Both the position numbers and the translations under genes were made by a program. Shown piece by piece: positions 12,301-28,726 of a DNA stretch of 64,000 nt. Numbering within the stretch: position 1 is the stretch's first letter; each line of letters opens with the position of its first letter. The notes under the pieces are model-generated. The model did not search any database and was not told the DNA's origin. It saw only the letters and a list, made by a program, of their open reading frames with translations. Origin of the DNA: Allacma fusca (taxonomy: Eukaryota > Arthropoda > Collembola > Symphypleona > Sminthuridae); assembly GCA_947179485.1 (NCBI GenBank), contig OX359250.1, forward strand, positions 6,717,661 to 6,781,660, given 5' to 3'.

Positions 12301-13115
12301 TCATTTGAACTACGACATTAAAAAGCCTGTTCAAATTCATTGTCTTTATTGTAGTGTAACAAATTTCAGAAGGATGTTCAAATGGAGTCAAGGTAGGCTT
12401 TAACGCTAATAAGGTGGCCTCTAGTCATAATTACGAATCAAGCTGAAGTAACAAATTGGCTAGAATTTACAAAGGTTAGGATGTGCCATGTCTGCCAACA
12501 TTCAATTGTTGTACTTACAGGAAAACAATGATAAAAAAATATGTACCAATAGATCAAATAAATGGTTAAGCAAATCAAAGTAAAATTTCAGACATGTGAC
12601 GTGTACTTGCGAAGTGCCTGAATTTGGTGCAAAAAATCCGCAATGAGCATGAACATGTTAAAAATTACTGATAAATAATGAGCTCGACAATGTATAGACA
12701 CAACTAGCAAAGCTTACATGTCATAGCCTCTCATACGGACAGTAGCGTACCCATGGTAAAATCAGAAGATCAGTGGTAAGGTGTCTGTATGTTAGCAGGT
12801 GCGCTTTACTAATCAATCTTACCTTGATGAAATTTATTTAATAATGCACGTTCATAGCGTCCAACGTTCACTTTCTAGTAGTGACTTGACGAGAGCACAA
12901 ATCACATAATAGTTCACAGTTCCTGAATACTTAAAACTTTCATATTGTTCAGGAGTTGTTGACTTCATCAACGTTCCTGTCATTATTACTGGGCAACTAT
13001 TTGACCAGCTTTGTTTGCGCGAACTACTACAATAAATGAGCAGTTTCCTGCTGGGATAACTTGAGACAATTTTGATCAAAATTTTTCATTTGGCGCACGG
13101 CGCTTATCTTTTACA
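3344..13115. other. Long gene-free interval
   Basis: About 9.8 kb of AT-rich DNA with only short open frames, the longest 121 codons at 4360-4725. None resembles a family I know, and none is bounded by a convincing donor and acceptor pair. I see no tRNA, long tandem repeat or large inverted repeat here. The left edge should hold the sorting nexin promoter, and the right edge the CSP promoter. Confidence 0.6.
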
Positions 13116-14895
13116 ATGAGAAGCATACCCATCTTTGTGGTCCAGTGCATTTTCCTTTCAGGGGTGCTTTCCTTTCCTCAAGGGAAAGAGTTTCCGCTCA
13201 AACTTCAGCCAGAATTGGATATTCTAGATGTAGAAACTTACTTAAATAATCCTCGGCTTTTGAATCTGCAAATTAAGTGCATTTTGTATGACGGACCTTG
13301 TGATGTCGTCGGCCGATGGGCAAAGCGTGAGTATCCATTTAATAATTTTTTTTCCCATTTTATATTATCAATAATTTCATTCCTATTTTTTGTACACTAA
13401 ATGCACGTTGCAATTTCTCGTCGTCGTTTCGTACGTCTAGACAGTAAACAATCCATGAAGGCCTCTATTTCCCATGAGCCCATTGCTGGCAGTTAGAAAT
13501 CTTATGGAAGTGTGAATCTGTAACACAATTTCTCATATCAGTGCTGGTGTTTTTGTACTAGTTTTATTTTCTTCAGGTGACGTTTCTCAAGTAAGACGTA
13601 TATACTATCTAGTACAAATTTTGTACATTTTGGAAACTTGTGACGCAAGACACAATATCTATTGCGCTTTCAATACCAAGTCCATATCTTGCTTGATTCA
13701 GCACACGTAATGCAATTTTTATCCAAGATAATACATAGATATAACGCGGCCGTTAACATAGGGTCCTGGAATTAAACCAATTGTAAATTAAAACTCAGTT
13801 GGGCTCTATTACAGTAGTATTGTACAATCGATAGAAATGGAAACGTTGCTCTGTAACTTTCCTCATGCCAGTGAACGTGAACAAAGACAGGAAATATATC
13901 TGTGACTTAAGGCTACAAGCATATCGTCGTTGAAGAGGCAAAATGATCTACATGCTATGTATTTTGTACAGCATGTAGATCATTTTGCCTCTTCAACGAC
14001 GATATCCTCATTAATGGTTTATCAACGTGAAAGCATCCTTTTTATCACAATAAGTCAGAGAATAATAATAAACTGTAGAATTACACGGAACATCTAACAC
14101 ATGAATGGTCTTCTAAGAATAAGTCCGGAGTAAATCTTGTTACATTTTGGCACTCAAGTAGCTACACACATACTTGAAGTAAATAGATAAAGCCGAGATA
14201 ATGGCATAAAAACATGCAACAGTGTCATAACAATACGTCAGTAAGTTTGTGTAATTAATACATTGTGGGCCATAAAGTGCTTACCTCACTTATAAAACAG
14301 CGCTACTTAAATCATACTTTCGTTTTATGACACGAATAGAACTATGCAGATGTAAGAAAATGCATACTGAGAGCTCCTAGAGACAATATTATTACGAACT
14401 CCCTGATAATAGCCTCACCAAATAGAGACGAGTTAATATGAAGGACCTTGATTAGCGTTCAGCAGAGCCCATTTAAACCTGTGACCATAAAAATGCCATA
14501 ATGCCAAAGTAAGAAGTGGCACAAGTATCGAAAGTTTGTGTTTGACTAATTTATTCTCATGTGTTACAGCTCGTGTCAAAGCTGGTCTTCTTGGAGAGTG
14601 TTTGCTCTGCACGGAGAAGCAAAAGGGATGGTTGGACACCTGGCTCGAAAAACTCATCAAGAACTTCCCTGATCTGTACAGGGCTGGTGTAGCTAAATTT
14701 ATCCTTAACACCGGGATTCAAGTACCTCAGGACGAAGTTGACAAGTTAAAAACCACTTTTGATAGACTTGACAGAGATGGTCTCTTGTCGGAAACCAACT
14801 CTACTGTGGCAGCTCCTCAATCTTCCATCGTCTCCTCAACGACAACAACAACAACACCAGCATCAACTTTTCCAAATACCACCACCGTTCCTTAA
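13116..14895 (+). CDS. Chemosensory protein (CSP / OS-D family), secreted, two exons
   Basis: Exon 1 is 13116-13326 and exon 2 is 14570-14895, giving 178 residues. The donor is GTGAGT and the acceptor TTACAG. The phase-1 intron falls just after a lysine codon, the conserved CSP intron position. A signal peptide covers about residues 1-19 (hydrophobic IPIFVVQCIFLSGVL). The diagnostic spacing C-x6-C-x18-C-x2-C is exact, with Cys55, 62, 81 and 84. The core LYDGPC, ECLLC and DxYLNNxRLL segments match the family. Known family role: small secreted six-helix proteins that carry hydrophobic ligands, in chemosensation, development and cuticle. The protein is longer than the usual 100-130 residues because of a Ser/Thr/Pro-rich tail from about residue 147 that may be O-glycosylated. 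The start is the first ATG and gives the signal peptide. The intron carries a perfect hairpin element. Confidence 0.95.
13921..14005. mobile_element. Palindromic (foldback) mini-element, 36-bp perfect arms
   Basis: The arms at 13921-13956 and 13970-14005 are perfect inverted repeats around a 13-nt loop. Each arm begins ATATCGTCGTTGAAGAGGCA and continues AAATGATCTACATGCT. The element lies in the CSP intron. The sequence on both sides resembles 18399-18547, which lacks the hairpin and so acts as an empty site. A related pair of arms is at 20881-20939, and a degenerate single arm is near 34887-34910. Being symmetric, it would fold into a long hairpin RNA from either strand. Confidence 0.75.
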
Positions 14896-20560: not shown

Positions 20561-20880
20561 AAAAAGAATCCTCCACCTAAAATAAATTAAATCCCACCTG
20601 GACACCTTGGATCAACTATGAGACCGATGTTTCAGCTGAAATACGTGAGTGGTAAGTTGTCAGCATAACACGACCGAATTGTAGGGTAACAGTGAAATGA
20701 TCTTTATTTTAACCGTTTATGTTCTCTTTGTCATCTGATAGCCCTTAAGTAAAAGGAATATTTTCACGTCATTACAGTTCTCATGCTTCCCCATTGGTGT
20801 TTTACATGGTATCATAGCGAGAGCAATTAGCAAAAGGTAAAAGATTTAACAGTAGAATTATAACGAAGCAGTTTAACATA

Positions 20881-20970
20881 TCGTCGCTGAAGAGGCAAAA
20901 AGCATGCACACATATTCCATTTTGCCTCTTCAGCGACGACATTGTCGGTGAAGAGGCAAAATGAGTGCAC
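20881..20970. mobile_element. Second palindromic mini-element of the TCGTCG...AGAGGCAAAA family
   Basis: The arms at 20881-20900 and 20920-20939 are perfect 20-bp inverted repeats (TCGTCGCTGAAGAGGCAAAA) around a 19-nt loop. A third, direct copy of the arm core (TGTCGGTGAAGAGGCAAAAT) follows at 20943-20962. A further weaker inverted match (GAGTGCACAATTT near 20964 against 21034-21048) suggests a larger folded unit. It belongs to the same family as 13921-14005. Confidence 0.7.
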
Positions 20971-21340
20971 AATTTTGATTTGCTTTAACAAAGCTTTAGG
21001 TTAAGCAATATTGCCATTGCCGGTGCACTGGTAAATTGTGTGCACTCTATTAAATATGTAGCTGTCTTCATTCCTTATGTGGCAATTTCTGCACAAATAT
21101 CTTCCGGTAAAAATTGAAAGAAAATAAAGTAATTATGTATGTATTGTAAGCGTCTCATCTCTCTCATTGACTGGCCGAATATTGCAGTTGTAGTAATTGA
21201 ATTCGTGTATACACAATTACTTTGCAAATAAATACATCTAATTTTATTCGCAAACGGAAGAATGCGTACAAAGAATTTTATTTCAGGTTATGATGGTTGT
21301 AATATGTAACTAAAATATTTGGAAATCCAGCGTCAGACCA

Positions 21341-21346
21341 TTTATT
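21341..21346 (-). terminator. Poly(A) signal of the PRXL2B/SelU gene
   Basis: AATAAA on the minus strand, 23 nt downstream of the SECIS-like stem-loop and about 285 nt after the stop codon. This places the SECIS-like element inside the predicted 3' UTR. Confidence 0.6.
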
Positions 21347-21629: not shown

Positions 21630-22501
21630 TTAGGTATCCCCTGAAACGGAAACATTTTCCGGCTGAGTGATGATAGCGGACTTGATGTCGGAAATTGGCG
21701 CATTCTCATCAATATTTAATGCCTGAAGGATTTTTGAATTGTCCAAATGATCTGCCAGTCCTTTCATTTTGTAGGAAAGAATGACACGTTTCCCTCCCTT
21801 CTCAACAATAAGTGTTCCTCCCATTTGCAATCCATTACCTTTCCAATTGTTTTTGATATTGTTTTTCTTTCCCTGTGTATTTTTATTGCACATTTGTATT
21901 TTTGCGGAATAAGAAACCGGCGGATCTTCAAATGAAAAATCTGGAAGCCGGTTTTTCTGACACACAAAACATCTTTACAAAACGTACCTCAGCAGAAACC
22001 CTTTTAACGTCAGCACTGCAACAGACCGCACAACAGATATTGCAAATATTGTACGTCTTGTAACCCAGCGCCTTGTACTGCTCGTGGTTGGTATCCAAGA
22101 AGATATCCCCATCAAAGTATTTCTTTTCGAGAAATTCCTGGTAGCCAATCTCTTCCAGTCCTATCCCAATCAAACGAATGTTATGTGCTCGTAGCAAGGG
22201 TGCAATTTTGCTTAATTGGACAGCCCCTTGCCGGCACAATACTCATCCAAACCTCCGAAAGTAATTGATCACCACAGTTTGGTCCTCCCACAGGGAAGAC
22301 ATTTGTACTTCCTAAAATGTACATAATGGTCAAAGTTGAGCTACCTAAAAATGATTTTTTATTTTTGCGAAAACGTCTGCATTAAAGTAACAATGGACAA
22401 TATTCCTGTATTATTATTTCTACACACACCTCAAGATCAGGGATTTTTGTTACAGTTTTCCCTTCTACAGCTCGTAGTAGTTCTGAATTTTCAGATGCCA
22501 T
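21630..22501 (-). CDS. PRXL2B/SelU-type peroxiredoxin-like selenoprotein, three exons, in-frame UGA
   Basis: Coding exons 22501-22430, 22311-21988 and 21872-21630, all phase 0, giving 212 residues if the TGA at 22245-22243 is read through. The protein aligns along its length with the PRXL2B (FAM213B, prostamide/prostaglandin F synthase) branch of the SelU/PRXL2 family: SLWEDQ, YFRRFG-U-VLCRQ, IRLIGIGLEE, GDIFLDTNHEQYKALGYK, LQMGGTLIVEKGG and LQALNID. The thioredoxin-fold redox motif is U47-x-x-C50, where other members have CxxC. The ATG is the first after an in-frame stop 9 nt upstream. Intron 2 is 115 bp. A Cys-rich patch (CNICCAVCC) lies in exon 2. No frameshift or second stop is present. 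The family reduces substrates using thioredoxin; whether this protein makes prostaglandins is unknown. A pseudogene is the alternative, made unlikely by the SECIS. Confidence 0.9.
22243..22245 (-). other. Predicted selenocysteine codon (UGA)
   Basis: This TGA follows FG and precedes VLC, exactly where the first Cys of CxxC lies in Cys-containing homologues. It is the only in-frame stop between the start and the terminal TAA. With a SECIS downstream, it is best read as selenocysteine, residue 47. Confidence 0.87.
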
Positions 22502-27200: not shown

Positions 27201-28726
27201 TGAGCAAAACATTTTTCAAAAATTAGATAAATAAATTGGGCAAAGTCATAGTTTAACTCATGGATGATTCTAGGAAAAATTAGTATTTCACAAAGTCTAA
27301 AATTTTGAACACAGTTATGTTCAGCACAATGCCAGTTTTGTGACCGATTCCTATTCATGTAATGACCATTAATATGGCGTGATTATTAATCATAATTTTA
27401 TTATGGCATACTATTCTACAGTAATGTTTATTTGATTTCCAGGGTTGTTATTTGGAGTTTTCGACGGACATGGGGGGCCAGCCTGTGGTCAAGTAGTGGC
27501 TAAAAGATTATTCCGTTATATTGCGGCGTCTCTGCTACCCCGAGATGTTTTGCACAATACAATGAATCCTGCTAGTCAAGGCTCAAACGGGAAAAATTTG
27601 TTAGGCGTTTTCAACGATAGATATGATCTAGTAGAAGATTTAAGTAAATTGTATGAACAAAGTTTTCAAGAATTTGTCAAACACTTGGCAGAAGAGAGTG
27701 ATGATTTTCGGATGAATTCAGCAATCGAAAAATCGTTTTTGAGACTTGACAATGATTTAAGTAAGGAAGCATTTGCAAATGGAAACAAAAATGATTCAAA
27801 AGAACAAAAAGAGGATAGCAAACTAGCCTTGAAAACAATGTCAGTGGCGCTTTCGGGTGCTGTGGCCTGTGTAACTCATATTGACGGAGAACATTTACAT
27901 GTAGCGAATTGTGGTGACTGCCGAGCAGTTTTAGGCTCCCGAAGTAGTGAAGTTGAAGACTGGGTAGCAGTGCCTCTGACAATGGAACATAATTCAGAAA
28001 ATATTTCTGAAGTGAAACGAATTTTGTCAGAACATCCTGAAAACGAAAGTGACACAGTTATCCGGAATGAGAGACTTCTAGGTCAGTTAGCTCCCTTGCG
28101 AGCTTTCGGAGATTATAGGTAAGACATTTTTACCTCACGTCAGTCATAATTTTGAATTTTCATCAAACTTTTATTTTTGCCAGTATTTAAGTGTATGTAT
28201 GAATTTCAGATTTAAGTGGACTTTAAGTGAAATTCGAGAATTGGTGGTTCCTTACCTCGGCGAGCAAGCCCTCTCTTCGAACTACTTGACTCCGCCGTAT
28301 CTAACCTCCCGTCCTGAAGTCACTTACCATAAATTAAGAGTAAAGGATAGTTTCTTAATAATTGCATCCGACGGATTATGGGACATGCTTTCCCCAAGTC
28401 AGGCCGTTCGTCTTGTTGGAGAGCATCAATCCGGAAAAACTGTATTAAGTCCGTATAAGTTACCCGAAAATCAGGGACATACGCTGGGAGACGTACATAA
28501 TACGCTACTGAAACGAATGGAGTCATTTAAATTGAAACCTACAGATCAAAATGCTGCAACACATCTCATCCGACACGCCCTTGGGGGTACCGAACATGGG
28601 ATAGATCACAATAAGATGAGCAATCTCTTGACCTTACCTGAAGATACAGTCAGATTATTTCGAGATGATATTACAGTCACTGTTATATTTTTTGATCCTG
28701 AGTATTTGAGTCAGCGACCACTGTAA
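24297..28726 (+). CDS. Pdp: Pyruvate dehydrogenase phosphatase catalytic subunit (PDP1 type), mitochondrial
   Basis: Exons 24297-24455, 25133-25271, 27443-28118 and 28210-28726 join in phase to 496 residues, close to the family length. Role: a Mg/Mn-dependent PPM-family Ser/Thr phosphatase that dephosphorylates the E1-alpha subunit of the pyruvate dehydrogenase complex in the mitochondrial matrix and so reactivates it. PPM motifs in order: FGVFDGHGG with metal-binding Asp107, SGAVACV (about 237), NCGDCRAVLG (about 255), SDGLWD with metal-binding Asp379, and RDDITV with Asp477/478. PDP-specific blocks: IEDAR in exon 2, LAPLRAFGD (about 320) and DQNAATHLIRHALG. The N-terminus is Arg/Cys/Ser/Thr-rich with few acids, as in a presequence. 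The start is the weakest part: a splice-acceptor-like CTGTTGCAG lies just before the ATG, and the frame stays open to 24246. Intron 2 holds two repeat copies. Confidence 0.95.
25358..26010. repeat. Dispersed repeat family, copy 2 (PDP intron 2)
   Basis: Starts CAGGGTGTC like copy 1 and keeps the block order: pyrimidine-rich run, CCCATTTTGTA, AAATTTTCTCCAGATTT, ACAGCGGTCAA, GCCGCAAAATGGTAAAT and ATGACCTCACTGAC. This copy is continuous, so it shows the arrangement expected before the insertion in copy 1. It lies wholly within an intron. Confidence 0.65.
26420..27345. repeat. Dispersed repeat family, copy 3 (diverged, PDP intron 2)
   Basis: Shares with copy 2 the blocks CCCATTTTCTA, AAATTTTCTTCTAGATTT, ACAGCGGTCAAATAGGTGGA and, near the right, CCTCACCGATC with AATAGCCTTCTCC. 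More diverged than copies 1 and 2, and the CAGGGTGTC end is missing. An AT-rich run sits in its middle near 26720-26765. Confidence 0.55.

Follow-up and report, generated by a model that had tools for sequence, protein, structure and literature searches.

The window analysed here, a stretch of 64,000 nucleotides of the springtail Allacma fusca (C9:6717661-6781660), carries on its minus strand, at 22501-21630, a gene of three exons separated by GT-AG introns, all in phase 0, that encodes a PRXL2B-type protein of 212 residues. The sole in-frame stop ahead of the terminal TAA is a TGA at codon 47 (22245-22243). The gene and the features downstream of it are as follows, all on the minus strand:

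22430..22501, minus strand: exon 1, 72 nt, start codon at 22501-22499, residues 1-24
22312..22429, minus strand: intron 1, 118 nt, GT-AG, phase 0
21988..22311, minus strand: exon 2, 324 nt, residues 25-132; holds the thioredoxin-like core and the active site FG-U-VLC
22243..22245, minus strand: in-frame TGA, predicted from the sequence and its homologues to be selenocysteine (Sec) 47
21873..21987, minus strand: intron 2, 115 nt, GT-AG, phase 0
21630..21872, minus strand: exon 3, 243 nt including the stop, residues 133-212 and the terminal TAA
21369..21414, minus strand: core of a SECIS-like element, with a GTGA quartet strand, helix II, a UAA apical bulge, helix III and a TGAT quartet strand
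21341..21346, minus strand: AATAAA, a possible poly(A) signal downstream of the SECIS core
21243..21248, minus strand: AATAAA, second possible poly(A) signal

This reconstruction bears out the preliminary description, which had read three phase-0 exons, a full-length PRXL2B-like protein with a single TGA, and an exon 3 that closes with the TAA at 21630. A homologous exon 1 that also bears an ATG is found in two sister genes, at loci L001 and L004. The contig carrying the window, C9, is chromosome X2, which is listed at 48.07 Mb in the paper on the assembly (qeAllFusc8.1), where 95 scaffolds, 392.8 Mb and a QV of 58.7 are given (PMC10427803).

The window protein matches the Pfam family AhpC-TSA_2 (PF13911; E = 7.1e-19, 68.7 bits against a cut-off of 27), and the better of the two solved-structure sequences that it matched is human PRXL2B (PDB 9us9; E = 6e-37), whose protein name is prostamide/prostaglandin F synthase. 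Human PRXL2B shares the domain and the active-site position with the window protein, and its first CxxC Cys sits under the window TGA in the alignment, as had been claimed earlier; the human protein has Cys at this position, whereas the springtail protein would have Sec. An alignment of exon 2 with all three human paralogues, which the preliminary description had proposed, gave identities of 47.7% for PRXL2B, 36.0% for PRXL2A and 30.5% for PRXL2C, the latter two values being provisional, and by sequence PRXL2B is thus the nearest of the three. Vertebrate SelU1 (PRXL2A), a group of which Sec-bearing SelU forms are described in fish and birds, belongs to the same Prx-like2 family and differs by this lower identity to exon 2. 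A tree of 15 exon-2 rows and 86 columns was mostly unresolved, with two of 12 inner branches well supported and seven open; in it human PRXL2A neighbours PRXL2B, and PRXL2C falls within the Sec copies, PRXL2A and PRXL2C both on very long branches. Family resemblance suggests that the product is a thioredoxin-fold reductase for peroxide-like substrates, and the springtail enzymes may use prostanoids.

When exon 2 was searched against the whole genome (392,743,791 bases in 91 contigs), 12 matches were obtained, 11 with exactly one stop and one without any. In all 11 the stop is a TGA, each at query codon 47, a recurrence beyond chance, and in the twelfth this codon is TGT. An 11-residue off-frame match at C8:44364315 (E 0.33), likewise with TGT, was left out of the count. 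Placed on the exon-2 query, the copies are:

TGA copies: the window gene; C1:18187250; C8:26528512
TGA copies, further on C8: 44268304, 44272281, 44278234, 44340394, 44342314, 44346006, 44364371 and 44367212
Cys copy: C8:44261514, TGT at codon 47

The window gene is a member of an expanded family with 11 Sec members and one Cys member, and nine of the 12 exon-2 matches lie within about 106 kb on chromosome 2. Active sites among the Sec copies are of the types FG-U-xLC, WG-U-KxC and WQ-U-KFC, together with two that are without the second Cys, namely FG-U-VLT (UxxT) of the C1 copy on chromosome 1 and FG-U-ILS (UxxS) of the copy at C8:44342314 on chromosome 2. The WQ-U-KFC copy at C8:44268304 (c44268, locus L010) lacks a clear splice acceptor where one is expected and may be decaying. 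A thirteenth PF13911 locus (L022; C10:10968435-10968602, minus strand) is more distant, was matched by the Pfam model only and not by the PRXL2B exon-2 query, and is possibly PRXL2C-like; its active site was looked for and not located.

Coding constraint is alike on either side of the TGA, despite near-saturated synonymous sites. By a simple Nei-Gojobori count over exon 2, pooled over pairs that are not independent and many of which are saturated in dS, pN/pS is 0.111/0.718 on the 5' side of the TGA and 0.110/0.625 on the 3' side among the seven FG-type copies, and 0.142/0.655 and 0.137/0.564, respectively, among the four WG-type copies. Only two of the 82 codon columns compared among the 11 Sec copies are invariant at all bases, the TGA itself and one Trp TGG, and within the seven FG copies alone nine of 81 non-TGA columns are invariant. 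Coding selection persists 3' of the UGA, as in eukaryotic selenoproteins.

A scan with our own pattern over the 1 kb 3' of the stop codon gave as its optimum in the window the element at 21414-21369, with GTGA, helix II, UAA, a five-pair helix III and TGAT, and a similar hairpin was found by the same scan 3' of all 11 Sec copies, seven of them with ATGA and four with GTGA as the 5' quartet strand. By scan score the element ranks first in nine of the ten sister Sec copies and is tied second in c44342. Downstream of the Cys copy the scan found nothing like it; an unlike site there scores 17, a value reached in two of 60 shuffles. The scan is non-specific by itself, three other sites of the window scoring at least 18 and the window element 17; with 60 shuffles per copy, the observed score was never reached in five of the 11 Sec copies, was reached once in three, the window gene among them, and was reached three times in c44268, seven times in C8B and 19 times in c44342. 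Among the seven FG copies 89.5% of cells are paired, and five of the 15 pairs show compensatory changes with both sides altered; neither 500 shuffles nor six slid versions reached the covariation score of these seven related sequences. Two of five covariation measures are weaker (changes on both sides of a pair, 13/500 shuffles; further pair types, 89/500), and six of the 15 pairs never vary in these sequences. A 22-base half-SECIS pattern built from five copies matches those five places only in the 393 Mb, and its reversed control matches none. Folding energy over the 91 nt around the window element is ordinary (z -0.50, with 54 of 200 shuffles as good). In Rfam, the window element matched none of the SECIS families at E values of 10 or below, and four loci that together hold six sister elements and that of SPS2 gave no match at E 5 or below; since the element of the SPS2 candidate described below (locus L039) is likewise unmatched, the Rfam SECIS models may be insensitive here.

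Selenocysteine machinery had been named as a further check, and candidates for tRNA-Sec, SPS2, eEFSec and SBP2 were all found, as were candidates for SepSecS and PSTK. The tRNA-Sec candidate (C12:50449629-50449714) scores 76.7 bits against 45.6 for the next best, and its anticodon is read as UCA. Exons of SPS carry LKG-TGA-GCKV with a SECIS-like site downstream, and the gene, having a TGA of its own, is therefore of the Sec type, SPS2. The eEFSec candidate lies at C10:21991442, with human eEFSec as its best solved match (5.2e-46), that for PSTK at C9:40528225 (E 7.6e-28), and that for SepSecS at C5:33.51 Mb, with six exon matches; the SPS, eEFSec and PSTK matches, made with exon pieces, are all under the curated cut-offs, and all six factors are candidates by sequence, mostly recovered as exon pieces. 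For SBP2 a fragment of the human protein gave one weak match at C10:16.94 Mb (E 0.134), and two exon pieces of this candidate match SBP2 in 7zjw (1.2e-27). Two other leads were set aside: a first eEFSec candidate at C12:48298640 is mitochondrial EF-Tu, and a Ribosomal_L7Ae search for SBP2 gave seven matches in five genes that are other L7Ae-type proteins by translation, which we take to be RPL7A, NHP2, SNU13, RPS12 and RPL30. The genome also holds eight matches to glutathione peroxidase (on C1, C8, C10 and C12), four of them with one internal TGA, which suggests further selenoproteins. About 5 kb separate one match that is free of TGA, at C1:18181772, from the Sec-PRXL2B copy on C1.

The gene is, with high probability, a working PRXL2B (SelU3, prostamide/prostaglandin F synthase-like) selenoprotein gene; the preliminary description had called it a live selenoprotein, and the SECIS-like element, the selection past the TGA, the ten sister genes with TGA and the six candidate Sec factors support that view. 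A 3' UTR SECIS hairpin would recruit SBP2, eEFSec and tRNA-Sec, enabling the ribosome to decode the UGA at codon 47 as Sec, which would replace the first Cys of CxxC to give a UxxC thioredoxin-fold reductase. For the window gene, transcription, Sec insertion itself, reductase activity and the substrate are predicted in this model.

Three other explanations were weighed against this one. A pseudogene or an assembly error, in which TGT or TGC was mutated to or misread as TGA and the protein is non-functional, could account for any single copy, which is just one base off Cys, and the sister copy c44268 may indeed be on that path; it is, however, hard to reconcile with a TGA common to ten sister genes at separate loci, and the low pN/pS 3' of the TGA, the intact splice sites and termination of the window gene and the assembly QV of 58.7 (PMC10427803) also make it very improbable. 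Ordinary read-through, with the UGA decoded as an amino acid other than Sec, we hold to be just as improbable: constraint past the TGA is compatible with read-through of any kind, but the TGA occupies the site of the family's first CxxC Cys, one sister gene has Cys there, and both SECIS-like elements and candidates for the Sec factors were found. Least probable of all are two short proteins: the TGA would end translation, and what follows it would be translated on its own or spliced in another way. Although a gene caller would stop at residue 46, such an arrangement would split the active site at one codon in 11 genes whose halves are conserved in one frame.

Selenoproteins of this kind have been described before. 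In Jiang et al. (2012), SelU3 is the prostamide/PGF synthase, and eight SelU3 proteins are given from seven invertebrate species, of which three are Cys forms from deuterostomes while Sec forms occur in non-deuterostome invertebrates (PMC3473315); a Sec-containing PRXL2B was therefore already a known kind. These proteins resemble the window gene in being of the PRXL2B/prostamide-PGF synthase type with Sec in the redox site, and a GUGA_AA SECIS is likewise given there for 12 of 21 sponge elements (PMC3473315). The springtail family, from a terrestrial hexapod, differs in having UxxS and UxxT forms, and in size: the table of that paper has at most four Sec SelU of all types per species, against 11 of one type here (PMC3473315). 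The earlier suggestion that a Sec-containing PRXL2B in this lineage may be undescribed is supported only in part: the protein type has been known since 2012 (PMC3473315), and the open-access literature searched, supplementary tables aside, gave no report of one in any springtail or other arthropod. Strigamia maritima, a terrestrial arthropod that is not an insect, has 20 selenoproteins and all Sec factors, and the main-text passages on its selenoproteome, whose table is in the supplement, do not mention SelU (PMC4244043). Six SeC tRNAs and four SECIS are given for the genome of the springtail Holacanthella, and the passages of that paper with selenium terms contain no selenoprotein analysis (PMC5644144); Collembola or springtails are not mentioned in a survey of tRNA-Sec (PMC5330540). 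The open-access literature searched appears to contain no report on springtail selenoproteins, nor were the springtail expansion and its UxxS and UxxT members found in it. Within that literature, the springtail host, the 11-gene expansion and the members without the second Cys (UxxS and UxxT) are new.

Springtails are hexapods near the insects. Insects, most of which lost selenoproteins, are known for such losses (PMC2375036; PMC2500217; PMC4244043). We propose, tentatively and with somewhat less than even confidence, that in springtails a Sec-PRXL2B gene multiplied until its SelU set exceeded every one described in the literature consulted, that selection kept Sec through near-saturated synonymous divergence, and that the chemistry diversified, the UxxS form on chromosome 2 and the UxxT form on chromosome 1 having dropped the resolving Cys to become single-selenol enzymes that act on new substrates, against the view that selenoproteins were shed by terrestrial arthropods. 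That a land hexapod has an expanded Sec family still under selection argues against simple loss on land. Natural UxxC, UxxS, UxxT and CxxC variants of one enzyme offer a chance to test the benefit of Sec, and standard annotation readily truncates or misses such genes.

Elsewhere in the window, a protein phosphatase 2C gene with at least two exons lies at 27436-28723 on the plus strand, and a weak match to OS-D, an insect pheromone-binding family, is found at 13065-13397 on the plus strand, under the curated cut-off. At 20877-20961, 3' of the PRXL2B-type gene, TTTGCCTCTTC...GAAGAGGCAAA form an inverted-repeat motif, of which there is also a third, partial copy; the motif is perhaps a small mobile element.
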